A stretch of DNA of 64,000 bases from Streptomyces phaeolivaceus. Lineage in GTDB: Bacteria > Actinomycetota > Actinomycetes > Streptomycetales > Streptomycetaceae. The translations under genes were made by a program, and so were the position numbers. The notes under the pieces are model-generated. The model saw only the letters and a list, made by a program, of their open reading frames with translations, made no database searches and had not been told where the DNA came from. Numbering within the stretch: position 1 is the first letter of the stretch; each line of letters begins with the position of its first letter. Shown one piece after another: positions 9,344 through 46,954 of the stretch. The stretch covers positions 2,604,001 to 2,668,000 of the forward strand of contig NZ_CP045096.1 in assembly GCF_009184865.1 (NCBI RefSeq). The letters are read 5' to 3'.

Positions 9344-10411
9344 TCAGCAGCACTCCGCGTCCAGCCCGCGAGGCAACCGCTCCCCTCCGAACACCGCGCA
9401 CGTCGCCTCGTCGCCCCCCAGCGCCGCCACCGCCAGCAGCAGCGACCCCGCGGTCCAGGAGGTCAGCTCCTCGGGCCAGATCACCCGGTCCTCGAAGACG
9501 TAACCCGTCCAGTACAGGCCGGAGTCGGCGTCGCGGAGGTGCTGGATGGACTGGAGGATGTCCAGGGCACGGTCGGACTCGCCCATCGCCCAGAGCGCCA
9601 GGGCGAGTTCGGCCGACTCACCGCCGGTCACCCACGGGTTGGGGACCACGCAGCGGACCCCGTAGCCGGGTACGACGAACCGGTCCCACCCTTCCTCGAC
9701 ACGGGACTTGGCCTCGCTGCCGGTGAGCGCGCCGCCGAGCACGGGGTAGTACCAGTCCATCGAGTAGCGGTCCTTGTCGAGGAACCGCTCGGGGTGCCGG
9801 CGTATCGCGTGCCGTAGCGCGCCGACCGCCAACTCCCAGTCCGGCTGCGCCTCTTCGCGCTGCTCGGCGATGGCGAGCGCGCAGCGCAGCGCGTGGTGGA
9901 TGGAGGAACTCCCGGTCAGCAGCGCGTCGTTCACGGCCGTGCCGTCGTCCTCGCGCTTCCAGCCGATCTGCCCGCCGGGCTGCTGGAGCCGCAGGACGTA
10001 TTCGACGGCCGCGTACACGGCGGGCCACATGCGGTCGAGGAAGGTGTCGTCGCCGGTGGCCAGGTAGTGGTGCCAGACGCCGACGGCGATGTACGCGACG
10101 AAGTTGGTCTCGCGGCCCCGGTCGGTGACGTCGTCGGCGTCCCCGTCGGCGTACGCGGCGTACCAGGAGCCGTCCTCGTTCTGGTGGCGGCGCAGCCATG
10201 CGTAGGCGCGCTCGGCGGCCTCGTGCTCACCGGCCGCGTCCAGGGCCATGGCGGCCTCGGTGTGGTCCCACGGGTCGAGGTGGTGTCCGCGGAACCACGG
10301 GATGGCACCGTCCGCGCGCTGCACCGCGAGGATGCCCCGCACGGTGACGGCGGCCTCCTCGGCGGTGAGGACCCCGGGCAGGACCAGGTGTTCTGTCCGG
10401 GGAGTGGTCAC
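9344..10411 (-). CDS. Alpha/alpha-toroid protein (prenyltransferase/squalene-oxidase-repeat type)
   Basis: 355 residues, GTG start. Repeated helical-hairpin motifs with the QW-like signature are visible: LAVQRADGAIPWFRGHHLDP, AYAWLRRHQNEDGSWYAAYA and LRLQQPGGQIGWKREDDG, then SSSIHHALRCALAIAEQ and DSGLYWTGYVFEDRVIWPEE. The family fold is an alpha-toroid shared by terpene cyclases and some glycoside-acting enzymes; no DXDD catalytic motif of squalene-hopene cyclase is seen, so a cyclase role is not supported. The start GTGA overlaps the stop of the methyltransferase gene, so the two are translationally coupled. The three-gene unit suggests modification of a glycosylated product. Confidence 0.8.
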   Translation of the reverse strand: MTTPRTEHLVLPGVLTAEEAAVTVRGILAVQRADGAIPWFRGHHLDPWDHTEAAMALDAAGEHEAAERAYAWLRRHQNEDGSWYAAYADGDADDVTDRGRETNFVAYIAVGVWHHYLATGDDTFLDRMWPAVYAAVEYVLRLQQPGGQIGWKREDDGTAVNDALLTGSSSIHHALRCALAIAEQREEAQPDWELAVGALRHAIRRHPERFLDKDRYSMDWYYPVLGGALTGSEAKSRVEEGWDRFVVPGYGVRCVVPNPWVTGGESAELALALWAMGESDRALDILQSIQHLRDADSGLYWTGYVFEDRVIWPEELTSWTAGSLLLAVAALGGDEATCAVFGGERLPRGLDAECC

Positions 10412-11175
10412 TTGGCGTCCGCCGGGGCAGCGGCGGCGGTGGGGGCGACGGCGGCGACGGGCAGGTGCGGCTTGGTCGCGTACGCCACGAAGCTCTTGCC
10501 GATCAGCGGGTTCAGCGCCTCCTCGGCGACCCGGGTGGCCAGCGGCTTCCTCATGATGTCCCAGACCAGCAGCTTGTGGTACGCCCGCACCGGCAGCGCC
10601 TTGTCGTTGTCGACGCCGAACGCGCACTTCAGCCACCAGTACGGCGAATGCAGGGCGTGCGCGTGATGGGTGCCGTACGGCTTGAGGCCCGCCTCGCGGA
10701 TCCTGGCCAGGAGTTCGTCCGCCTTGTAGATGCGGATGTGGCCGCCCTCGACCTCGTGGTAGGCGTCGGAGAGCGCCCAGCAGACCTTCTCGGGGCCGTA
10801 GCGCGGGACGGTGATCGCTATCCGGCCGCCGGGCTTCAACACCCGGACCATCTCGGCGAGTACGCCCTTGTCGTCGGGGATGTGCTCCATCACCTCGGAG
10901 ATGATGACGACATCGAAGGACTCGTCGGGGAAGGGCAGCGCGAGGGCGTCGCCCTCCATGGCCGTGGCGGTGGCGCCCTCGGGGGCCTCGCCGGCCTCCT
11001 TCATCGCCGCGAACCACTTGGCGACCTCGCGGATCTCCTCGCCGTTCTGGTCGAGGGCCACGACCCGGGCGCCGCGCCGGTAGCACTCGAAGGCGTGCCG
11101 GCCCGCTCCACAGCCGAGATCCAGGACACGGTCCCCCGGGGCGAGCGGGAACCGGGAGAAATCGACGGTCAGCAC
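10408..11175 (-). CDS. Class I SAM-dependent methyltransferase
   Basis: 255 residues. Motif I is VLDLGCGAGRHAFE, the motif II acidic residue follows in VVALDQN, motif post-II is EGDALALPFPDESFDVVI, and a VLKPGGRIAITVP motif III follows. The GTG start lies inside the end of the glycosyltransferase gene (GTGCTGA, 7-base overlap), and its own stop overlaps the next GTG by four bases. An AGGG sits upstream of the start within the glycosyltransferase gene. The C-terminal tail is Ala/Pro-rich. Likely acts on the glycan or lipid product of the neighbouring glycosyltransferase; substrate not known. Confidence 0.88.
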   Translation of the reverse strand: MLTVDFSRFPLAPGDRVLDLGCGAGRHAFECYRRGARVVALDQNGEEIREVAKWFAAMKEAGEAPEGATATAMEGDALALPFPDESFDVVIISEVMEHIPDDKGVLAEMVRVLKPGGRIAITVPRYGPEKVCWALSDAYHEVEGGHIRIYKADELLARIREAGLKPYGTHHAHALHSPYWWLKCAFGVDNDKALPVRAYHKLLVWDIMRKPLATRVAEEALNPLIGKSFVAYATKPHLPVAAVAPTAAAAPADAK

Positions 11176-20081: not shown

Positions 20082-20215
20082 AGTGACCGGGTCGTCATCA
20101 CACCCGTACTGGGGGAAGCCGGTGCAAATCCGGCGCTGACCCGCAACCGTGAACCGGCCCCGGCAAGGGGACGGTGAGTCGGATCGCCCGGTACGGAACC
20201 GTGACCGGCTCGCGT
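20082..20215 (+). promoter_or_regulatory. Cobalamin riboswitch
   Basis: The conserved core is clear: GAAGCCGGTGCAAATCCGGC, then GCTGACCCGCAACCGTGA (the B12 box and J-regions), followed by GGTGAGTCGGA and a closing GGTACGGAACC strand. It lies 107 bases upstream of the first ATG of the operon. Family knowledge: adenosyl- or aquocobalamin binding shuts down expression of B12 uptake or synthesis genes. Boundaries are estimated. It implies that all five genes that follow respond to cobalamin. Confidence 0.93.
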
Positions 20216-20321
20216 CACCGGCGGTCCGCCGGTGCACGGCACCGTCGAGGAATACGGAGCCGAGCCGCCCGGCGCTTCGCCGTGCGCCCGGCTCCCCGTC
20301 AGGGAGGGGCAACCCCCGATC

Positions 20322-21716
20322 ATGAACGTCCGCCGCAGCGCCGCGGTAGTCGCCGTACTGGCCGTAACAGCCGGTCTCGGCACGGGACTCGGTAGCGGTA
20401 CCGGTATCGGTACCGGTAGCGGTAGCGGTACCGGCACCGGTTTCGCGCCGGTCGCCGTCGCCGTCACCGCCGCCGACGCGGCCTCCGCGTCCCCGGACAC
20501 CGCCGCCGCTCCCTCCGCCTCGCCGTCGCAGGCGATCCCCACCGGTCTGTACGGCTCCAACGACCCCACGTACGACGGCGTCTGGCGGCAGTCGCTCGCG
20601 CTGCTCGCGCTGGACACCGTCGGGGAGAAGCCGGGTGCGGGGGCGGTGGAGTGGCTCGTCGGGCAGCAGTGCGGCAGTGGGGCGTTCGCGGCGTACCGGG
20701 CGGACGCCACCGCCGAGTGCGACGCGAAGACGGCCGTCGACACCAACAGCACGGCCGCCGCGGTGCAGGCGCTCGCCGCGGTTGGCGGCCGGAACGCCGA
20801 GGCCGGGCGGGCGGTGAGCTGGCTGAAGGAGAACCAGAACAAGGACGGCGGCTGGGGCTACACCGCCGGCGGACCCAGCGACGCGAACTCGACCTCCGTC
20901 GTCATCGGCGCCCTGACCGCCGTGGACGAAGCCCCCGAGCGGCAGAAGAAGGACGGCAACTCCCCCTACGACGCCCTCCGCGCCCTCGCCATCCCCTGCG
21001 CCGAAAGGGATGGCGAGGACGCGGAGGCCGGAGAGAACAGCGGGGATGGCGGGGGCGGCGGGGGCTTCGCCTATCAGCCCGACAAGAAGGGTGGGCTCGT
21101 GGCCGACGCCGATGCGACGGCCGCCGCCGTGCTCGGCAGCCTGGGTGAGGGGTTCGTGGCCGAGGCGGGGACCGGGGAAGGTGCCGCCGGGAAGTGCGTC
21201 GCGGGTGACTCTCCTGAGGAGCTGGCCCACAACGGGGCCCGTTACCTGGCCGGTGACCTCGCCGCCGACGGCTATCTGAAGTCCGCCCTCGCGGGTGCGG
21301 AGGACCAGCCGGACCACGGCAACACCGCCGACGCGGTCGTCGCGCTCGCCGCCGCCGGGGACGAGGAGGCGACCGCGAAGCCGCTCGCCTGGCTGGCGAA
21401 GAACCACGGCGTCTGGGCGGCCGAGGCCGGGCCCGCCGCGTACGCCCAGCTCGTCTTCGCCGCGCACGCCTCCGGCGGCGATCCGCGCGACTTCGGCGGC
21501 ACCGACCTCGTGGCACGGTTGAAGGAGACCGGTCCGGCGCGTGATGTGGACGACTACTCCTCCGTACCCCACGACGACACGGCCGCCGGGGAGACGCGCT
21601 ACGACGGTGGACTCGGGGCGGGCGCGTGGTGGGCGATCGGGCTCGGGGGCGTCGTCGTGGCGGCTGTCGTCGGGTTCGTGGCGGTCAGGGCCGGCAGGAA
21701 GCGGCGGGAGGCGTGA
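20322..21716 (+). CDS. Secreted, membrane-anchored toroid protein of the B12 operon (transcobalamin-like fold candidate)
   Basis: 464 residues. N-terminal signal segment (SAAVVAVLAVTAGLG), a low-complexity Gly/Thr stretch, then repeated prenyltransferase/squalene-oxidase-type helical hairpins: WRQSLALLALDTVGEKPGAG, VEWLVGQQCGSGAFAAYRAD, AVSWLKENQNKDGGWGYTAG, NTADAVVALAAAGD. The end is one hydrophobic helix followed by RAGRKRREA, which would anchor the protein with its bulk outside. It is the first gene after a cobalamin riboswitch and overlaps the next gene by GTGA. Eukaryotic intrinsic factor and transcobalamin use the same alpha-toroid fold to hold B12, so a surface cobalamin-binding protein is a fair hypothesis. 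The enzyme residues of terpene cyclases are not evident. Confidence 0.8.
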   Translation: MNVRRSAAVVAVLAVTAGLGTGLGSGTGIGTGSGSGTGTGFAPVAVAVTAADAASASPDTAAAPSASPSQAIPTGLYGSNDPTYDGVWRQSLALLALDTVGEKPGAGAVEWLVGQQCGSGAFAAYRADATAECDAKTAVDTNSTAAAVQALAAVGGRNAEAGRAVSWLKENQNKDGGWGYTAGGPSDANSTSVVIGALTAVDEAPERQKKDGNSPYDALRALAIPCAERDGEDAEAGENSGDGGGGGGFAYQPDKKGGLVADADATAAAVLGSLGEGFVAEAGTGEGAAGKCVAGDSPEELAHNGARYLAGDLAADGYLKSALAGAEDQPDHGNTADAVVALAAAGDEEATAKPLAWLAKNHGVWAAEAGPAAYAQLVFAAHASGGDPRDFGGTDLVARLKETGPARDVDDYSSVPHDDTAAGETRYDGGLGAGAWWAIGLGGVVVAAVVGFVAVRAGRKRREA

Positions 21717-22459
21717 CCGGCCGTCGTCGCGGGGGCGCCGGGTCGCGGTCGCGTGGGGTGCTGTTGCTGCTGAGCGGTGTCCTGGTCGTGCTGGGGCCGG
21801 GGGGCCTGGGGCAGGGGCAGGCGCAGGCGCAAGCCGCCGCGTACCGCTACTGGTCGTTCTGGGAGCGGGACGGTTCGGCCTGGGCGTACGCCACGCAGGG
21901 GCCGTCGACCGCGCGGCCGTCCGACGGGGAGGTGCAGGGCTTCCGGTTCGCGGTCAGCCGGGACTCCGGGGACGCGGTCCGGCCGCGTGGGGCCGCCGAC
22001 TTCGCCACGATCTGCGGGGGCACGGGCGCGCGGGGCGGGGAGAAGCGGGTCGCGCTGGTCATCGACTTCGGTACGGCGGCGGACGCGCCGGCGGGCGAGA
22101 CGCCTCCGGCGGCGCGTACGGCGTGTGCGCGGGTGGCGGACGACGCGACCACTGCCGAGGCGTTGGCCGCTGTCGCGGGGCCGCTGCGGTACGACACGAG
22201 TGCGATGCTCTGCGCGATCGCGGGGTATCCGAGGGCGGGGTGCGGGGAGGCGGTCGGGACCGACGCCGACGCCACCGCCACCGCCACCGCCGGCGCTGAT
22301 GCTGATGCTGATGCTGATGCTGATGCCGCGAGTTCATCGGCCGCGGACTCCTCCGGCGGGGAGGGGGCAGGGCCGGCCGTCGGGCTGTTCGCGGGTGTGG
22401 GGGTGGTGGCCGTGCTGGGGGCCGCGGCGGTGTGGCAGGCGCGGCGGCGCCGGGGGTAG
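21713..22459 (+). CDS. Secreted anchored protein, second gene of the B12 operon
   Basis: 248 residues. GTG start overlapping the previous stop; signal peptide GVLLLLSGVLVVLGPGGLG followed by AQAQA; a domain with AYRYWSFWERDGSAWAYATQ, DGEVQGFRFAVS and KRVALVIDFG; then an Ala/Asp repeat stalk and a C-terminal helix (AGVGVVAVLGAAAVWQ) with ARRRRG. I recall related actinobacterial proteins being called the SCO2322 family; no biochemical role is known to me. In human B12 carriers a small beta domain partners the toroid; this protein could be the split-off counterpart, by inference from operon only. Confidence 0.72.
   Translation: MTGRRRGGAGSRSRGVLLLLSGVLVVLGPGGLGQGQAQAQAAAYRYWSFWERDGSAWAYATQGPSTARPSDGEVQGFRFAVSRDSGDAVRPRGAADFATICGGTGARGGEKRVALVIDFGTAADAPAGETPPAARTACARVADDATTAEALAAVAGPLRYDTSAMLCAIAGYPRAGCGEAVGTDADATATATAGADADADADADAASSSAADSSGGEGAGPAVGLFAGVGVVAVLGAAAVWQARRRRG
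22295..22324 (+). repeat. Five GCTGAT units coding an Ala-Asp stalk
   Basis: Five perfect GCTGAT copies, each coding Ala-Asp, preceded by GCCGAC/GCCACC units coding the same kind of stalk. GCT and GAT are rare codons in this genome, so the expansion is likely recent slippage. It lies between the extracellular domain and the membrane anchor of the second B12-operon protein. Confidence 0.85.
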
Positions 22460-22465
22460 GGGTCG

Positions 22466-23689
22466 ATGCGGTGGTTCACAGGGCGCCCGGAGTCGGGGTC
22501 GGCCGGGGCGGGGTCCCGCGACTCGGCGGCCCGGCAACCCTCCCCCAGGGCTGGTCGGGAACGTGGGGTGCACCCCCTCGCGTGGTGGCTCTGGGCGTTG
22601 GGGCTGGCGACCGCCGCGTCGCGGACCACCAACCCGCTGCTGCTCGGGCTGCTCGTCGCGGTCGCCGGGTTCGTCGTGGCGACGCATCGGACGGACGCGC
22701 CCTGGGCCCGTTCGTACGCCGCGTTCGTGAAGCTGGGGTTGGTGGTGCTGGTCGTACGGCTGGGGTTCGCGGTCGTGCTGGGGTCGCCCGTCCCGGGGAC
22801 GCACACGCTGTTCACGCTGCCCGAAGTGCCGCTCCCCGACTGGTCGCAGGGGATCCGGCTCGGCGGCCGGGTCACGGCGGAGGGTTTCCTGTTCGCGCTG
22901 TACGACGGGCTGCGGCTGGCCACCCTGCTGATCTGTGTCGGCGCCGCGAACGCCCTCGCCAACCCGGCACGGCTGCTCAAGTCCCTCCCCGGCGCCCTCT
23001 ACGAGGCGGGCGTGGCCGTCGTCGTGGCGATGACGTTCGCCCCGCACCTGGTGGCGGACGTCCAGCGGTTGCGGGCCGCGCGACGGCTGCGCGGGCGCCC
23101 GGACCGGGGCGTTCGGGGGCTGCTGCATGTCGGACTGCCGGTGCTGGAGGGCGCGTTGGAGCGGTCGGTCGCCCTCGCCGCCGCGATGGACTCGCGCGGC
23201 TACGGCCGTACGGCACAGGTCCCCGCCCCGGTCCGCCGTACGACCGCCGCGCTCACCCTCGGCGGGCTGCTCGGCGTCTGCGCGGGAACGTACGGTGTAC
23301 TGACCGCCGAGGGCGGCACCTACGGCCTCCCCGTGCTGCTCACCGGGCTGGCCGCCGCGCTCACGGGGCTGCGGCTGGGCGGCCGGCGCTCGCCGCGCAC
23401 CCGCTACCGGCCGGATGTGTGGGGGGTGCGCGCGTGGCTGGTGGCCGGGTCCGGTGTCGCCGTCGCCGCGCTGCTGATCGTCTGCGCCGCGTACGACGCC
23501 GCCGCCCTGCACCCCGGTGTCGTCCCCCTCACCTCTCCGAGCCTCCCCCTCGGGCCGGCCGCCGCGATCCTGCTGGGCCTCCTCCCCGCGTTCGTCGTGC
23601 CCACCCCACCGAGATCCGCACCGCTGGAATCCGCCCCACCGAGATCCGCCGCACCGAGATCCGCCGCACCGACGAAGGAACGCGCATGA
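22466..23689 (+). CDS. ECF transporter transmembrane component EcfT (CbiQ-type)
   Basis: 407 residues with six or more hydrophobic segments. The coupling-helix signatures are seen as LRAARRLRGRPDRGV (Ala-Arg-Arg motif) and AAAMDSRGYGRT, both typical for EcfT where they touch the ATPases. The start ATG is 6 bases after the previous stop, and the stop TGA overlaps the next ATG. It couples ATP hydrolysis to movement of the substrate-binding S protein. The C-terminal tail encodes 15-base repeats (see 23608). Confidence 0.9.
   Translation: MRWFTGRPESGSAGAGSRDSAARQPSPRAGRERGVHPLAWWLWALGLATAASRTTNPLLLGLLVAVAGFVVATHRTDAPWARSYAAFVKLGLVVLVVRLGFAVVLGSPVPGTHTLFTLPEVPLPDWSQGIRLGGRVTAEGFLFALYDGLRLATLLICVGAANALANPARLLKSLPGALYEAGVAVVVAMTFAPHLVADVQRLRAARRLRGRPDRGVRGLLHVGLPVLEGALERSVALAAAMDSRGYGRTAQVPAPVRRTTAALTLGGLLGVCAGTYGVLTAEGGTYGLPVLLTGLAAALTGLRLGGRRSPRTRYRPDVWGVRAWLVAGSGVAVAALLIVCAAYDAAALHPGVVPLTSPSLPLGPAAAILLGLLPAFVVPTPPRSAPLESAPPRSAAPRSAAPTKERA
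23608..23672 (+). repeat. Short tandem repeats (about 15 bp) at the end of EcfT
   Basis: ACCGAGATCCGC units recur with 15- to 33-base spacing, coding PPRSAP-type repeats at the C-terminus of EcfT just before the stop. They lie within 80 bases of the ATPase start and so could vary without harming the transporter core. Confidence 0.75.
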
Positions 23690-25437
23690 TCCGCTTCGAG
23701 GATGTCTCCGTGACGTACGACGGGGTGGACCGACCCACCGTCCAGGGCGTGGACTTCGAGGTCCCGGAGGGTGAACTCGTGCTGCTCGTCGGGCCGTCGG
23801 GCGTCGGCAAGTCGACGGTGCTCGGGGCGGTGAACGGGCTCGTGCCGCACTTCACCGGTGGCACCCTGCGCGGCCGGGTCACCGTGGCCGGCCGGGACAC
23901 CCGTACCCACAAGCCGCGTGAACTCGCCGATGTGGTGGGCACGGTGGGGCAGGACCCGCTGTCGCACTTCGTGACGGACACCGTCGAGGACGAACTCGCC
24001 TACGGGATGGAGTCGTTGGGGATCGCCCCGGACGTGATGCGGCGCCGGGTGGAGGAGACGCTCGATCTGCTGGGCCTCGCGGACCTCCGCGACCGGCCCA
24101 TCGCCACGCTCTCCGGCGGCCAGCGACAGCGCGTCGCCATCGGGTCCGTCCTCACTCCGCACCCACGCGTCCTCGTCCTCGACGAACCGACCTCCGCGCT
24201 GGACCCGGCCGCCGCCGAGGAGGTCCTGGCCGTGCTCCAGCGACTCGTCCACGACCTCGGCACGACCGTCCTCATGGCCGAACACCGCCTGGAACGAGTG
24301 GTCCAGTACGCCGACCAGGTCGCCCTCCTCCCCGCGCCGGGCGCCCCCCTGACCCTCGGCACACCACCCGAGATGATGGCGATCTCGCCGGTGTACCCCC
24401 CGGTGGTGGACCTGGGCCGCCTGGCGGGCTGGTCCCCGCTGCCCTTGACGGTGCGGGACGCCCGCCGCAGGTCGGGCCCCCTGCGGGAACGCCTGGCGAC
24501 TCAAGCCCCGCCCCGGGCACCGACCCGGGCACCGGAGGGGCGCGGGGCTGTCACATGTGCGGCTCCGCCGCGTGGGCGCGAGCAATCACGAACCACCCGC
24601 ACCCCGCACACAACAGAACCCCCCACCCCCTCCCCGGCGGCAGTCGACGCCCTCTCCGTCCACCACGGCCACGTCCACGCCCTCACCCACGTCACCCTCA
24701 CCGTCACCCCCGGCGAGACGATCGCCCTGATGGGCCGCAACGGCGCCGGCAAGTCCACACTCCTCTCCGCCCTGGTCGGCCTGGTGACACCGGCGTCAGG
24801 CTCGGTACGCGTGGGCGGCCTCACACCGCACCGCACGGCGCCCAAGGACCTCGTACGCCGCGTGGGACTCGTACCGCAGGAGCCCCGCGATCTGCTGTAC
24901 ACGGACACGGTCGCGGCGGAGTGCGCGGCGGCCGACCGGGACGCGGGGGCCGAGCCGGGCACGTGCCGGGCGCTGGTCTCCGGTCTGCTCCCGGCGATCG
25001 CGGACGACACCCACCCCCGTGACCTGTCCGAGGGTCAGCGCCTGGCCCTCGCCCTCGCGGTCGTCCTGACGGCCCGCCCCCCGCTGCTGCTCCTCGACGA
25101 GCCGACCCGGGGCCTCGACTACGCGGCCAAGTCCCGCCTGGTCACGACCCTGCGCGCGCTCGCCGCCGACGGTCACGCCATCGTGCTGGCCACCCATGAC
25201 GTGGAACTGGCCGCCGAGCTGGCCCACCGGGTCCTGATCCTCGCCGACGGCGAGATCGTCGCCGACGGTCCGACCCCCGAGGTCGTCGTCGGCTCCCCGT
25301 CCTTCGCCCCGCAGGTCACGAAGATCCTCGCGCCGCAGCAGTGGCTGACCACGGCCCAGGTACGACGCGCTCTGCGGGCGGCGGAGGGACCGGACCGGCC
25401 GGAGCGGGGCGCGCCCGCCCCCGGGGAGCGGTCATGA
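23686..25437 (+). CDS. ECF transporter fused double ATPase (EcfA1-EcfA2)
   Basis: 583 residues carrying two ABC ATPase domains. First: VGPSGVGKST (Walker A), TLSGGQRQRVAIG signature, VLVLDEPTSALDP (Walker B). Second: MGRNGAGKSTLLSAL, DLSEGQRLALALAVVL (SEGQ instead of SGGQ) and LLLLDEPTRGLD. The halves are joined by a linker of about 60 residues whose DNA is a degenerate copy of the dispersed palindromic repeat (24503-24612). ATGA overlaps with both neighbours show tight translational coupling. It drives uptake of the substrate of the S component at 25434; the riboswitch points to cobalamin or a precursor. Confidence 0.92.
   Translation: MIRFEDVSVTYDGVDRPTVQGVDFEVPEGELVLLVGPSGVGKSTVLGAVNGLVPHFTGGTLRGRVTVAGRDTRTHKPRELADVVGTVGQDPLSHFVTDTVEDELAYGMESLGIAPDVMRRRVEETLDLLGLADLRDRPIATLSGGQRQRVAIGSVLTPHPRVLVLDEPTSALDPAAAEEVLAVLQRLVHDLGTTVLMAEHRLERVVQYADQVALLPAPGAPLTLGTPPEMMAISPVYPPVVDLGRLAGWSPLPLTVRDARRRSGPLRERLATQAPPRAPTRAPEGRGAVTCAAPPRGREQSRTTRTPHTTEPPTPSPAAVDALSVHHGHVHALTHVTLTVTPGETIALMGRNGAGKSTLLSALVGLVTPASGSVRVGGLTPHRTAPKDLVRRVGLVPQEPRDLLYTDTVAAECAAADRDAGAEPGTCRALVSGLLPAIADDTHPRDLSEGQRLALALAVVLTARPPLLLLDEPTRGLDYAAKSRLVTTLRALAADGHAIVLATHDVELAAELAHRVLILADGEIVADGPTPEVVVGSPSFAPQVTKILAPQQWLTTAQVRRALRAAEGPDRPERGAPAPGERS
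24503..24612. repeat. Dispersed palindromic repeat remnant inside the ATPase fusion gene
   Basis: GCCCCGCCCCGGGCACC, GGAGGGGCGCGGGGCTG and GGCGCGAGCAATCACGAACC match the arms and the outer tail of the intergenic repeat, most closely copy 3 (GCGAGCAACCACGAACCACC). Here it is translated as the linker between two ATPase domains, with the frame open throughout. Confidence 0.7.
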
Positions 25438-26243
25438 GCCGCCCGGTCCCCCTCTCCCCCCGTACCGTCGCCGCCCTCCTGATCGTCAGTGTCATCGGGG
25501 GCGCGGCCTTCGGCTGGCCCTTCTTCGCGGATCCCGGGTCGCAGGTGACCGCGCACGCGAAGGACGCGCCCTGGCTGTTCGCGGGGCTGCTCGTGCTGCT
25601 GGTCGGGGTCGTCGGGGCGACGCTCTCCGAGGCCGGGCTCGGCGCGAAGGCCGTGGCGATGCTCGGGGTGCTCGCGGCGACCGGCGCGGCGCTGCGCCCC
25701 ATCGGGGCCGGAACCGCCGGGATCGAGCCGATGTTCTTCCTGATGGTGCTCAGCGGCCGGGTCCTCGGCCCCGGCTTCGGCTTCACCCTCGGCGCGGTCA
25801 CGATGTTCTCGTCCGCGCTGCTCACGGGCGGGGTGGGGCCGTGGATGCCGTTCCAGATGCTGGCGATGGGGTGGTTCGCGATGGGCGCCGGGCTGCTGCC
25901 GGGCGCGCGGCGCCTGCGCGGCCGTGGCGAACTCGTCCTGCTCGCCGCGTACGGCTTCGTCGCCGCGTTCGCGTACGGCACGGTCATGAACCTCTACGGC
26001 TGGCCCTTCATCGACACGCTCGCCTCGAACATCGCCTTCGACGCGGCGGCGGACCCGGCCACGAACCTCGCCCGTTTCACCGCGTACTGCCTGGCCACCT
26101 CCCTCGGCTGGGACCTGGGCCGCGCGACCGTCACCGTCGTGCTGACCCTCACCCTCGGCGCCCCGGTCCTGAAGGCACTGCGCCGGGCCACCCGCCGGGC
26201 CGCGTTCGAGAGCGCGGTCACCTTCACCCCGCCCACCCGGTGA
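25434..26243 (+). CDS. ECF transporter substrate-binding (S) component
   Basis: 269 residues with about six hydrophobic helices (VAALLIVSVIGGAAFGWPFF, WLFAGLLVLLVGVVGATL, AVAMLGVLAATGAALRPI, and others). The pattern ALRPIGAGTAGIEPMFFLMV followed by GRVLGPGFGFTLGAVTMFSS is the ECF S-component/ABC-QueT-like conserved core. The ATG overlaps the ATPase stop. In this riboswitch operon it is best read as a cobalamin-type (CbrT-like) binding component; cobalt or another corrinoid precursor is not excluded. Confidence 0.88.
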   Translation: MSRPVPLSPRTVAALLIVSVIGGAAFGWPFFADPGSQVTAHAKDAPWLFAGLLVLLVGVVGATLSEAGLGAKAVAMLGVLAATGAALRPIGAGTAGIEPMFFLMVLSGRVLGPGFGFTLGAVTMFSSALLTGGVGPWMPFQMLAMGWFAMGAGLLPGARRLRGRGELVLLAAYGFVAAFAYGTVMNLYGWPFIDTLASNIAFDAAADPATNLARFTAYCLATSLGWDLGRATVTVVLTLTLGAPVLKALRRATRRAAFESAVTFTPPTR

Positions 26244-42105: not shown

Positions 42106-44766
42106 GTGGACGCTGCTGCCGTCGGTGCTCGTCTGGCGTCGAGCGTGGTCGCTCCCCTGGTCAAGAAACTCTTCGCACAGCCGGGCGCCGGTGCCGGCCT
42201 CGTCGCGCAGCCGGTGAAGGTCTCGGGCCTGGTGTCGTTCCGGGGCGAGAAGCGGGTCCTCGGCGAGAAGGAACTGCAGAAGGTCGCCACGGAGCTGGTG
42301 GCACGGGCCGTCGGCTCGGCCGGCCCGGCGGAGCGACCGGTGCCGGTCGACGAGGACGAGGCCGTCGCCGTGGCACTGACCCGCACGCTACGGGCCCTGG
42401 GCGACCTGGAGATGGACGACGTCCAGGCGGTGCAGCTCGGCCACCGGGCCCTGGCCAGACGGCTGCGCGACGCGGACCCCCGGGTGACCTTCGACCTGTC
42501 CGACGACGCGGCCCGGCTGCACGACACCCTGGTGGACGTCGCCTGTCTGCACATCCTGCACTTCTTCACCCAGCGCTCGGCCTTCGTCGCCCGCACCCTG
42601 GTCAGCCAGAGCGCCCAGCTCGCCGAGGCCGTCACCCGGATCGACCTGCTGCTGGAACGCACCCCCTCCCGGATCGGCGAGGACGCCGCCTTCGAGGCGC
42701 GCTACGCGGCGTACGTCATCGAGAAGTACGGCACGCTCACGATCTACGGCATCGACTTCACCAACTCCCCCGCCCAGTGGCCGCTGGACACCGCCTACCT
42801 CAGCCTGGAGCTGGCCGTCGGTGAGGGCACCCGCCAGCTGCCGGTCCGCGCCGACCACGTGCTCGACGGACGCGACCGCGTCCTGCTGCGGGGCGTCGCG
42901 GGATCCGGGAAGACCACACTGGTGCAGTGGCTGGCGGTGACCGCCGCCCGGGGAACCACGCTCGACGGCCATCTGGCCTCCCTGACCGGCCGGGTCCCGT
43001 TCGTCCTGGCCCTGCGGACCCTGACGCACTCCTGGCACGACCTGCCCACCCCCGGACGCTTCCTGACGGCCGCCCGCAACCCCCTCGCCGACGCGCAGCC
43101 GCACGGCTGGGCCGACCGCGTCCTGCAAGCGGGACGCGGGCTGCTGCTGGTCGACGGCGTGGACGAAGTGCCGTCCGCCGTACGGGAGAAGGCCAAGGAA
43201 TGGCTGCGCGACCTGATCGCCGCCTACCCGGGGAACCTGTGGCTGATCACCTCCCGCCCCTCGGCGGTACGGGAACACTGGCTGGACGGCCAAGGGTTCA
43301 CCGAGGGGTCCCTCGCCCCGATGAGCACGGCCGACGTCAACCACTTCATCCGGCGCTGGCACTCGGCGGCACGGGCCAGCGACACCTCCGACTGGGAACT
43401 GCTGGACAGCTACGAGCAGTCGCTGATGGCGGCGGTCCGCACCAAGGGCGACCTCTCCCGGCTGGCCACCAACCCCCTGATGTGCGGCCTGATCTGCGCC
43501 CTCCACCGGGACCGCCGGGGCTTCCTGCCCCGCGCCCGCAAGGATCTGTACGACGCCGCCCTGTCGATGCTGCTCTCCCGCCGCGACATCGAACGGAACA
43601 TGGGGCTCACCGACAGCATCGACCTCACCGAGGAGCCCAAGACCCAGCTGTTGCAGAAGCTCGCCTACAAGTTCCTGCTGAACGGCAAGTCGGAGATCGA
43701 CAGCGACCAGGCGGAGCGGATCATCGCGCACACACTGCCGTCGGTGTCCGCCGCCGCGAGCCAGGGCACGGCACAGCAGGTGTTCCGCCATCTGCTGCTG
43801 CGCAGCGGGGTGTTGCGGGAGCCCGCGCCCGGCACGATCGACTTCGTCCACCGCACCTTCCAGGACTATCTGGGCGCCAAGGCGGCCGTGGAGGAAGGCG
43901 ATCTGTCCCTGCTGGTGCTGCGTGCCACGGACAGCCAGTGGGAGGACGTCATCCGGATGGCGATCGCCCACGCCCGGCCCAAGGAACGCGCTGTCCTGCT
44001 CGGTGAGTTGATCACCCGCGGCGATGTCGCCGTCCCGCGCCGGCGCACCCTTCTCCATCTGCTCGCCATGGTGTCGCTGGAGCACGCCACGGAACTCGAA
44101 CCGACGATCCGCGCCCGGGTGGAGAAGCGGGCCGCCCGGCTGATCCCGCCCAGGAACAACACCGAGGCGCAGGACCTGGCCCAGGTGGGCCCCGTGGTCC
44201 TCGAACTGCTCCCCGGGCCCGAGAACCAGGAGCCCGAGACCGCCGTGCACACCGTCCGGACGGCGACACTGATCGGGGGCGACGCGGCGATCCCCGTCCT
44301 CGCCCGCTACACGGACGACCCGGACCCCGTCGTCCGCAGCCATGTCGCCCAGGCCTGGCATCGCTTCGACACCGACCAGTACGCGGCCGAGGTCATCGCC
44401 CGACTCCCGGACGACGACATCTACTTCGAGATCGTGACCCGGGCCGAACTCTCCGCGATCGGACACCTCGGCGGCCGGGCCCGGCTGCGCATCGGGGATG
44501 ATCTCACCCCCGACGACCTGGTGAACGCCCGTATCGCCGACCGTCTCACCTGTCTGTGGCTGCGCGCCGACCAGGCCCCCACCTGGGACTGGCTCACCGC
44601 CTTCCCCCATCTGCACACCCTGCTGCTCGACCGCGGCTTCGACGCCTTGGACCTCTCCTCGCTGGCCGCCCACCCCACGTTGCGGACGGTGGGCATGGAC
44701 CCGAGACAGCGCACGGCCGAAGGGGGCGGACCCGACTCCCGGTTCGAGATCACCACGATCGTCTGA
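42106..44766 (+). CDS. NACHT-domain STAND NTPase
   Basis: 886 residues. About 1-230 is a helical N-terminal region resembling NACHT-associated helical domains. The P-loop is GVAGSGKTTLVQWLAV (about 263-278), Walker B is LLLVDGVDEVPS (about 346), sensor NLWLITSRPSAV follows, and FVHRTFQDYLGAKAAVEEGD closes the NTPase module; the C-terminal part is helical repeats with LARYTDDPDPVVRSHVAQAW. GTG start with GGGGAAGGGG upstream. Bacterial NACHT proteins (bNACHT) defend against phage after effector activation; no nuclease domain is seen here, so its output is not clear. Convergent overlap of 17 bases with the truncated Hsp70 gene. Confidence 0.88.
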   Translation: MDAAAVGARLASSVVAPLVKKLFAQPGAGAGLVAQPVKVSGLVSFRGEKRVLGEKELQKVATELVARAVGSAGPAERPVPVDEDEAVAVALTRTLRALGDLEMDDVQAVQLGHRALARRLRDADPRVTFDLSDDAARLHDTLVDVACLHILHFFTQRSAFVARTLVSQSAQLAEAVTRIDLLLERTPSRIGEDAAFEARYAAYVIEKYGTLTIYGIDFTNSPAQWPLDTAYLSLELAVGEGTRQLPVRADHVLDGRDRVLLRGVAGSGKTTLVQWLAVTAARGTTLDGHLASLTGRVPFVLALRTLTHSWHDLPTPGRFLTAARNPLADAQPHGWADRVLQAGRGLLLVDGVDEVPSAVREKAKEWLRDLIAAYPGNLWLITSRPSAVREHWLDGQGFTEGSLAPMSTADVNHFIRRWHSAARASDTSDWELLDSYEQSLMAAVRTKGDLSRLATNPLMCGLICALHRDRRGFLPRARKDLYDAALSMLLSRRDIERNMGLTDSIDLTEEPKTQLLQKLAYKFLLNGKSEIDSDQAERIIAHTLPSVSAAASQGTAQQVFRHLLLRSGVLREPAPGTIDFVHRTFQDYLGAKAAVEEGDLSLLVLRATDSQWEDVIRMAIAHARPKERAVLLGELITRGDVAVPRRRTLLHLLAMVSLEHATELEPTIRARVEKRAARLIPPRNNTEAQDLAQVGPVVLELLPGPENQEPETAVHTVRTATLIGGDAAIPVLARYTDDPDPVVRSHVAQAWHRFDTDQYAAEVIARLPDDDIYFEIVTRAELSAIGHLGGRARLRIGDDLTPDDLVNARIADRLTCLWLRADQAPTWDWLTAFPHLHTLLLDRGFDALDLSSLAAHPTLRTVGMDPRQRTAEGGGPDSRFEITTIV

Positions 44767-45372: not shown

Positions 45373-46698
45373 GTGCACGACCCGGCGACGCTGATGATGG
45401 CGTTCGAACGGGTCGCGGGTAACAAAGGGGCCAAAACACCCGGAGTTGACGGCCTGACGGTCGTCAACATCGAGCAGGAGATTGGCCCTTATGGGTTCCT
45501 GGAGGACCTGCGCCGCATACTCCGGACGGGTGAGTTCCGCCCGCTGCCGGTACGCGAACGTAAGATCCCCAAGCCCGGTGGGAGCGGGAAGGTGCGCAAG
45601 CTCGGCATCCCGACCGTGACCGACCGGGTGGTCCAGGCGGCCCTGAAGCTGGTGCTGGAGCCGATCTTCGAGGCCGACTTCAAGCCGGTCTCCTACGGCT
45701 TCCGGCCCCTGCGGCGGGCACACGACGCGATCGCCGAGATCCACTTCTACGGCACCCACGGCCACCGCTGGGTCCTGGACGCGGACATCGAGGCGTGCTT
45801 CGACTCGATCGACCACACGGCCCTGATGGACCGGGTGCGAGCGCGGGTGAAGGACAAGCGCGTGCTGCTGCTGGTGAAGGCGTTCCTCAAGGCCGGCGTG
45901 CTCACCGAGTCCGCCGTCCGCGAGACCTCCTATACCGGCACCCCGCAGGGCGGCATCCTCTCCCCGCTCCTGGCGAACATCGCCCTGTCGGCGCTCGACG
46001 AGCACCTGACCGGGCCGTGGGAGCCGGGGCGGGAGATGTCGACCGGCCAGAGGCGCATGAGGCGCCGTCGCAAAGGTCTGCCGAACTGGCGGATCGTCCG
46101 CTACGCGGACGACTTCGTCGTCCTGGTGGACTCCGGCCGCGACGACACCGAAGCGCTGCGCGAGGGCATCACCGACGCGCTGCGACCGCTCGGGCTCCGC
46201 CTCTCCGAGGCCAAGACCCAGGTGGTGCACATGTCGGAAGGGTTCGACTTCCTTGGGTTCCGCATCCAGTGGCGCCGCAAGCGGGGATCGGACAAGTGGT
46301 ACGTCTACACCTACATCGCTGACCGGCCCATCCGGCAGCTGAAGGACAAGATCCGTGCCCTGACGAACAGAAAGTCGCAGCAGGACCCGAGGGACGTGCT
46401 GAGAAGGCTCAACCAGATCATGCGCGGCTGGGCCAACTACTTCAAGCACGCGGTCGCGAAAGTCACCCTGAGAACCCTCCAGCGTTTCGTCTGGCACCGG
46501 GTGATCAACTGGTGGATCCGGCTGCACCGCTGGAGGTGGAAGGACGTCCGCCGACGCCTCACCGACCACAACGGCCGGTGGCAAAGACCGTCGGCGGGCG
46601 GGATCGAGTTGTTCGACCTGCAAACGGTGACGGTCACCCGTTACCGCTACCGGGGCAACACGATCCCCACCCCCTGGGCCCTGCCCAACCACGCCTGA
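45373..46698 (+). CDS. ltrA: Group II intron reverse transcriptase/maturase (LtrA type)
   Basis: 441 residues from the first usable GTG. RT motifs: NKGAKTPGVDGLTVVNIEQE, RKIPKPGGSGKVRKLGIPTV, DADIEACFDSID, TPQGGILSPLLANIAL and RYADDFVVLVDS (YADD active site). The maturase X region (LRRLNQIMRGWANYFKHAVA) follows. No endonuclease HNH domain is seen. The frame is open a further 14 codons upstream with family-like sequence, so the natural start has been cut off. It may still give a protein, but the intron is broken. Confidence 0.88.
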   Translation: MHDPATLMMAFERVAGNKGAKTPGVDGLTVVNIEQEIGPYGFLEDLRRILRTGEFRPLPVRERKIPKPGGSGKVRKLGIPTVTDRVVQAALKLVLEPIFEADFKPVSYGFRPLRRAHDAIAEIHFYGTHGHRWVLDADIEACFDSIDHTALMDRVRARVKDKRVLLLVKAFLKAGVLTESAVRETSYTGTPQGGILSPLLANIALSALDEHLTGPWEPGREMSTGQRRMRRRRKGLPNWRIVRYADDFVVLVDSGRDDTEALREGITDALRPLGLRLSEAKTQVVHMSEGFDFLGFRIQWRRKRGSDKWYVYTYIADRPIRQLKDKIRALTNRKSQQDPRDVLRRLNQIMRGWANYFKHAVAKVTLRTLQRFVWHRVINWWIRLHRWRWKDVRRRLTDHNGRWQRPSAGGIELFDLQTVTVTRYRYRGNTIPTPWALPNHA

Positions 46699-46713
46699 AC
46701 GGCAGATTCCGTG

Positions 46714-46805
46714 GAGAGCCCGGTGCGTTGAGAGGCGCACGCCGGGTTCGGTGAGCGGCGCGGAGAGACGGGCCGGTGGCAACACCGGTACCGCGCTCCG
46801 CGCCG
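46714..46805 (+). ncRNA. Group II intron domains V and VI
   Basis: GAGAGCCCGGTGCGTTGAGA then GGCGCACGCCGGGTTCGGTG forms the domain V hairpin with the GAGA-type loop. The next hairpin (GAGCGGCGCGGAGAGACGGG, CCGGTGGCAACACCGG, CCGCGCTCCGCGCC) is domain VI with the branch-point adenosine region. The 3' end is near 46800. Gap between the RT stop and the GNAT gene is filled by these. Confidence 0.7.
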
Positions 46806-46954
46806 ACTCTACCTTCCAGAGTCCTCGGCCCAGGGCGCCTCGCCCCGTCGGGCCGTTTCGCACCGGGTTGCCCGAACCCGTTCGTTCAAACGGTGGGCGC
46901 GCGGGCGGAGACGGACATAAATCGTTTGCGGGCCACCCGCACCCGCTCCCGACA

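Follow-up and report, generated by a model that had tools for sequence, protein, structure and literature searches.

Does an importer for vitamin B12 (cobalamin) or a related corrinoid come, in Streptomyces, with extracellular proteins of its own that capture the ligand? This question is raised by one locus in the stretch of Streptomyces phaeolivaceus DNA analyzed here (contig NZ_CP045096.1, positions 2,604,001 to 2,668,000; 64,000 nucleotides, hereafter the window), which is part of a 10.2-Mb genome. At this locus, a cobalamin riboswitch is followed by the genes of two secreted proteins, called here the toroid protein and p2, and by those of an energy-coupling factor (ECF) importer:

20114..20172, + strand: aptamer core of a cobalamin riboswitch (RF00174; Rfam, 33.6 bits, E = 8.2e-5)
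20322..21716, + strand: toroid protein, SCO2321 family, secreted, alpha/alpha, with a C-terminal membrane anchor (NF053823, 510 bits)
21713..22459, + strand: p2, SCO2322 family, secreted, with a C-terminal anchor (NF040672, 227 bits, amino acids 39-181)
22466..23689, + strand: EcfT, transmembrane component, CbiQ family (PF02361, 33.7 bits; cut-off, 25)
23686..25437, + strand: fused EcfA1-EcfA2 ATPase (PF00005, ABC_tran, in two stretches, 189 bits)
25434..26243, + strand: ECF S component (PF12822, ECF_trnsprt, 32.4 bits; cut-off, 30.7)

We consider it likely that this operon encodes a riboswitch-controlled ECF-type importer of a corrinoid, that is, of a compound of the B12 group, equipped with its own extracytoplasmic capture proteins, which hand the ligand to the S component. 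When cobalamin is plentiful, the riboswitch would switch the operon off, and at low B12 the operon would be made. p2, anchored and carrying a putative permuted transcobalamin-type beta-grasp domain, would hold the corrinoid outside the membrane. The anchored toroid, where present, would cover it from the other side, in the manner of the two domains of transcobalamin, and the pair would pass it to the S component, from which EcfT and EcfA1A2 would drive it inward. Corrinoid binding by p2 and the toroid is predicted together with their role in transport; the nature of the ligand, the pairing of the two proteins and the hand-over to S are the steps that we infer.

The riboswitch match exceeds the RF00174 gathering threshold of 31.5 bits, spans positions 47-167 of the 189 in the model, i.e., the aptamer core only, and was recovered again by a whole-genome Rfam search. 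All five reading frames are intact, and the successive gene ends and starts (21716/21713, 22459/22466, 23689/23686, and 25437/25434) leave spacings of -4, +6, -4, and -4 bases. A previous interpretation of the same DNA, made from its letters alone (the sequence-only reading), had described exactly this layout, a riboswitch and then five genes with 4-base overlaps and one 6-base gap. It had also named EcfT, a fused EcfA1A2 and an S component, and the Pfam matches, each over its cut-off and with PF00005 found twice, bear this out and make up a complete ECF set. Cobalamin regulation of an ECF importer, which it had proposed, is likewise backed by the RF00174 and Pfam matches, in an arrangement that recurs in related genomes. 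The translations of the toroid protein and of p2 both start with a hydrophobic leader and end with a membrane segment and a basic tail, and p2 scores 23.8 bits as a GPS-CTERM anchor, under the cut-off of 28. The closest named relatives of p2 belong to the S. scabiei, S. bottropensis and S. europaeiscabiei group, and the S component shares 40-77% identity with 37 relatives from within the class.

Of 296 genomes surveyed from the class, 103 gave a match to the SCO2322 model above the cut-off, and our conservation counts refer to 100 loci taken from 99 of these 103. In 89 of the loci, p2 has the genes for EcfT, EcfA and the S component all downstream of it in the same orientation, and a toroid gene lies ahead of p2 in 63. 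Among the matches listed by Rfam at E values up to 0.001, some of which score under the gathering cut-off, a riboswitch precedes the first gene in 77 loci, with its 3' end 51-373 bases upstream of the first domain. Because the arrangement recurs so often, the riboswitch in the window is unlikely to be a chance match, despite its modest score. Five of the 23 loci without a listed riboswitch have fewer than 500 bases upstream on their contig, and 13 belong to the genus of the window. Control by a cobalamin riboswitch is common, not universal. A simple B12-box pattern, found upstream in only 13 of the 100 loci, was replaced by the Rfam search. The p2 gene and the ECF module are retained even in the genomes of 1.3-2.2 Mb that form group f25. 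In two large genomes of group f17 (loci L109 and L110), a SCO2322-family protein is encoded without a toroid or ECF neighbors on the same strand; these genes have possibly moved or been repurposed.

By sequence, the p2 domain runs S4-S5-S1-S2-helix-S3 and is a circularly permuted form of a broader actinobacterial family found in the same operon slot. These unpermuted relatives have a leader and, in most cases, a C-terminal membrane segment, and they follow the pattern VVVD...C...L...CxIDGxP...C...YWSYW...W.YS..G...GW.F. Their two halves correspond to the following segments of p2:

21842..21958, + strand: segment A, the C-terminal half of the unpermuted relatives (S4-S5, YWSFW...GFRF; from hhalign)
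22046..22249, + strand: segment B, the N-terminal half of the unpermuted relatives (S1-S2-helix-S3, VALVIDFG...LLCAIAGYP..GC; from the doubled-profile alignment)

When a p2 profile built on 99 of the 100 loci was aligned by hhalign with the unpermuted profile in its native order, 45 columns matched with a score of 86, and these covered segment A only. Doubling the p2 profile, so that the chain may wrap, gave 105 columns with a score of 162 (E = 6.8e-26), with segment B preceding segment A, and the three shuffled and one reversed controls scored 9-17. On this alignment score and these controls, convergence was rejected as the origin of the match. The NF040672 model, for its part, hits the unpermuted relatives weakly and in swapped stretches, e.g., 95-141 and then 5-65. 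When p2 was rotated stepwise, the score rose from a minimum of 86.3 at the native order to a maximum of 162.5 when the chain was opened in the linker that separates the halves. This linker thus joins the old N and C termini, and the new ones fall between strands 3 and 4. In a model of the unpermuted family (predicted local distance difference test [pLDDT], 93), the order of the elements was read as standard.

p2 appears to be a permuted relative of the DUF4430/transcobalamin-type SLBB domain, not a plain member of it. Its order of elements differs from the linear S1-S2-helix-insert-S3-S4-S5 of that domain. A Pfam search with p2 returned no family, so that it scores under the PF14478 cut-off, and 20 unpermuted relatives gave no Pfam DUF4430 match. 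In profile comparisons, 96 columns of the unpermuted family could be aligned with DUF4430 (probability, 80%; E = 1.3e-5), its own order giving the best result; the controls (five by shuffling and one by reversal) gave E values of 0.069-0.51. For p2, the alignment with DUF4430 extended over 91 columns when the profile was doubled (score, 37; E = 1.8e-5) and over 57 in native order (score, 30; E = 7.4e-5; reversed control, E = 0.44). The DUF4430 alignment comprised 28 of 30 loci, two wrongly cut near contig ends being left out. With a merged profile of 15 of the 20 unpermuted and 23 of the 28 DUF4430 rows, the best match in the PDB was transcobalamin-1 (E = 0.00098); of the nine rows that had E values no higher than 10, five were transcobalamins, and the full-length chains were matched in their C-terminal part. 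The vertebrate carriers end C-terminally in a DUF4430 domain (PMC4350170). A riboswitch stands before the first gene in eight of ten loci of the unpermuted family, and a strong one (70-116 bits) was found in all nine DUF4430 loci examined. The same ECF neighbors are kept in most unpermuted and DUF4430 loci (16/20, 66/77, and 14/20), and 13 of 20 DUF4430 loci combine T, A, and S with a toroid.

The toroid protein itself is a plain alpha/alpha toroid that scores above the cut-off for Pfam SQHop_cyclase_C (32.7 bits). The repeated QNKDGGWGY-type hairpins that the sequence-only reading had seen in it are borne out only in part: the protein has one good QxxDGGWG motif, and the remaining repeats are degenerate by eye. 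Its idea of a split transcobalamin analogue stands insofar as the kinship extends over the two proteins; the sequence link lies in p2, in permuted form, and not in the toroid. The transcobalamin idea is weaker for the toroid, whose nearest relatives by sequence are terpene cyclases and which about a third of the loci lack. Single-chain natural fusions of an unpermuted beta domain with a toroid were found in five open reading frames, with the beta domain first. With the model of a relative's beta-toroid fusion as the query, Foldseek placed terpene cyclases first and transcobalamin at ranks 39 (E = 1.9e-3) and 48.

Three beta-toroid fusions (L201, L202, and L197) have an LAxTG-like motif, a sortase anchoring signal, ahead of the membrane segment, suggesting that they are sortase anchored. 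Elsewhere (L138, L190, L191, L248, L249, and others), extra beta-domain and toroid genes and the ECF operon lie on opposite strands, and two beta-domain matches occur in 42 of 63 named loci of at least 13 kb; this suggests several capture proteins per transporter at such loci. Within the window, the protein encoded at 9347-10486 (- strand) has no Pfam family at E = 1e-5, and the toroid profile picks up a short stretch of it (E = 5.9e-6); its neighbors were read by eye as a methyltransferase and a glycosyltransferase.

Several results weigh against an importer with dedicated capture proteins. First, we know of no ECF importer that needs such extracellular proteins, and the S component gave no match to PDB sequences at E up to 10. 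A more permissive riboswitch search in eight of the 13 same-genus loci found none at E = 0.05 in seven of them and one weak match, at L117 (27.3 bits). The AlphaFold model of p2 reached a pLDDT of 50, and the fold of p2 therefore rests on homology. Doubling adds little to the alignment of p2 with DUF4430. In the merged-profile search, the second row was an unrelated translation factor (E = 0.0026); the unpermuted profile alone found no transcobalamin in the PDB, and with the DUF4430 profile alone, transcobalamin-1 (4kki) came up at E = 0.011 and was outranked by a putative metal-binding protein (3u7z, E = 0.00045). Given these weak single-profile matches and the translation factor, the link to transcobalamin is modest on sequence alone.

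On the same side of the balance stand the observations on the toroid. Most entries listed with its sequence profiles are terpene cyclases and prenyltransferases, squalene-hopene cyclases being nearest, and transcobalamin is absent from these listings. Moreover, 37 of the 100 loci show no toroid ahead of p2, including all 18 loci fetched from group f25; in three of the 37 (L046, L085, and L106), the contig ends within 500 bases and a toroid could have been missed. A profile of diverse toroids matched none of 31 genomes with toroid-less loci and all six toroid-bearing controls. A strict two-part carrier is thus not the general rule. The toroid being optional, p2 is the constant partner of the transporter.

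The alternatives concern the ligand, the toroid and the hand-over. The capture proteins could serve a precursor or relative (cobinamide, another corrinoid, a lower-ligand base, or cobalt), which we regard as improbable. Six further riboswitch matches, one of them under the cut-off, were found in this genome, and five of them are followed by cbiM, metE, cobN, the nrd alpha subunit gene, and cbiB; the metE and cobN calls are fragments in 3-kb loci, under the cut-offs of their models, and the gene after the sixth riboswitch had no family match. Since cobalamin riboswitches thus also stand ahead of genes for cobalt uptake or biosynthesis (cbiM, cobN, and cbiB), regulation alone does not name the ligand. 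This alternative also gains from the presence of at least some B12 synthesis genes in the genome and from an S component unlike any solved one in sequence. Against it, the beta domain is akin to the domain that contacts cobalamin in transcobalamin (PMC1796856). Also against it, p2 and the ECF module are kept in the group f25 genomes, which in size and operon resemble those of acI actinobacteria, reportedly unable to synthesize B12 (PMC5301498); we infer that group f25 belongs to acI.

Equally doubtful is that the toroid is an enzyme, i.e., a type II terpene cyclase or a relative, or a structural surface protein, the uptake system then consisting of p2 and the ECF importer. Its profile relatives and the many toroid-less loci would fit such a role. 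However, the motif of type II terpene cyclases, DxDD, is present in just 3 of 63 and 9 of 123 toroid regions, and the window protein has none in the toroid proper, only a DVDD in the tail beyond it. The five open reading frames that fuse a toroid to an unpermuted beta domain, and the toroids in DUF4430-ECF loci, also count against this alternative. Least likely of all is that p2 and the toroid form a surface corrinoid store or sensor while the ECF transporter works alone, without hand-over: ECF importers usually operate with the S component only and both proteins look anchored, but p2 has the three ECF genes behind it in 89 of the 100 loci, and the unpermuted and DUF4430 relatives mostly keep these neighbors, also in genomes of 1.3-2.2 Mb.

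The idea of an importer with capture proteins also has precedents. Burroughs et al. (2007) defined the superfamily, with its two conserved glycines, noted bacterial toroid fusions and operons with CbiO/CbiQ, and predicted B12 scavenging by transcobalamin-like beta-grasp and toroid proteins (PMC1796856). Beside animals, they gave the range of the clade as low-GC Gram-positives, planctomycetes and, less often, euryarchaea; neither "Streptomyces" nor "permut" occurs in the text of that paper (PMC1796856). Our system is like their SLBB (DUF4430, PF14478) systems in having a secreted or anchored beta-grasp domain, an alpha/alpha toroid and ECF (CbiO/CbiQ) genes. It differs in its occurrence in Streptomyces and many other members of the class and in a p2 that is permuted, unrecognized by Pfam and often without a toroid. 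With transcobalamin, haptocorrin and intrinsic factor it shares a toroid and a small beta-grasp domain, with profile similarity at the latter. Those carriers are a single chain with the toroid first and the beta domain last (PMC1796856), whereas this operon encodes two anchored chains from two genes, with the beta domain permuted.

The ECF-type B12 transporter has also to be compared; the two window families offer little beyond their model names, SCO2321 and SCO2322, of which the window genes are clear members and which carry no function. The transporter in question is known as CbrT. It is an ECF importer for cobalamin (PMC5997447) and in this respect alike; here, the S component has no PDB match by sequence, and capture proteins and a riboswitch are added. 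In acI freshwater actinobacteria, strains that lack a B12 pathway were reported to have an ECF module preceded by cobalamin riboswitches, and cobalamin transport was proposed for it (PMC5301498). SCO2321 has been termed a hypothetical protein in print (PMC9237094), and SCO2322 had no literature match among open-access papers. A 2007 beta-grasp paper mentions circular permutation for the UFD domain, and the portions available contain no mention of it for the present domain (PMC1949818). Among the results listed, searches of the open-access literature found no account of this operon system or of the permutation. The general scheme had been predicted for other Gram-positives, and what is new is the permutation of p2, of which we found no description.

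How often the permutation arose was approached with a tree built on EcfA, whose 106 rows comprised 54 permuted, 38 unpermuted, and 14 DUF4430 members. The DUF4430 rows fell on one side (Shimodaira-Hasegawa-like approximate likelihood ratio test [SH-aLRT], 100), and the quick tree needed four changes of the permuted label. When all permuted rows were kept in one clade, the log-likelihood rose by 19.9, with a p value of 0.733 in the approximately unbiased test (p-AU). Since this single-clade tree is likelier, swapping of permuted and unpermuted forms within families over a constant ATPase was dropped. As the single clade is not rejected and has the better likelihood, one permutation event is plausible, not proved. 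More tentatively, one event may have permuted a transcobalamin-type beta-grasp domain in actinobacteria and turned it into a free-standing extracellular loader of ECF B12 importers that does not need the toroid; the transporter would then own a substrate-binding protein at the surface.

The window also contains a group II intron at 45373-46812, with a reverse transcriptase/maturase (RVT_1, 132 bits; GIIM, 61 bits) followed by a match to the intron RNA (RF00029, 49.6 bits, 46714-46812). Directly upstream, a large NACHT NTPase with an NNH1 N-terminal domain (42106-44766) is possibly a defense or signaling protein.

Overall, two uncharacterized protein families, distributed from Streptomyces to genomes of 1.3 Mb, would gain a testable job, the capture of B12 outside the cell, and actinobacteria would be added to the bacteria that have relatives of the animal B12 carriers. 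Judging from p2, a beta domain of the transcobalamin type seems to tolerate circular permutation. The lineages without a toroid offer a natural experiment that bears on the question of the essential part. It also becomes possible that some ECF importers, so far regarded as relying on the membrane S component alone, use extracellular capture proteins.

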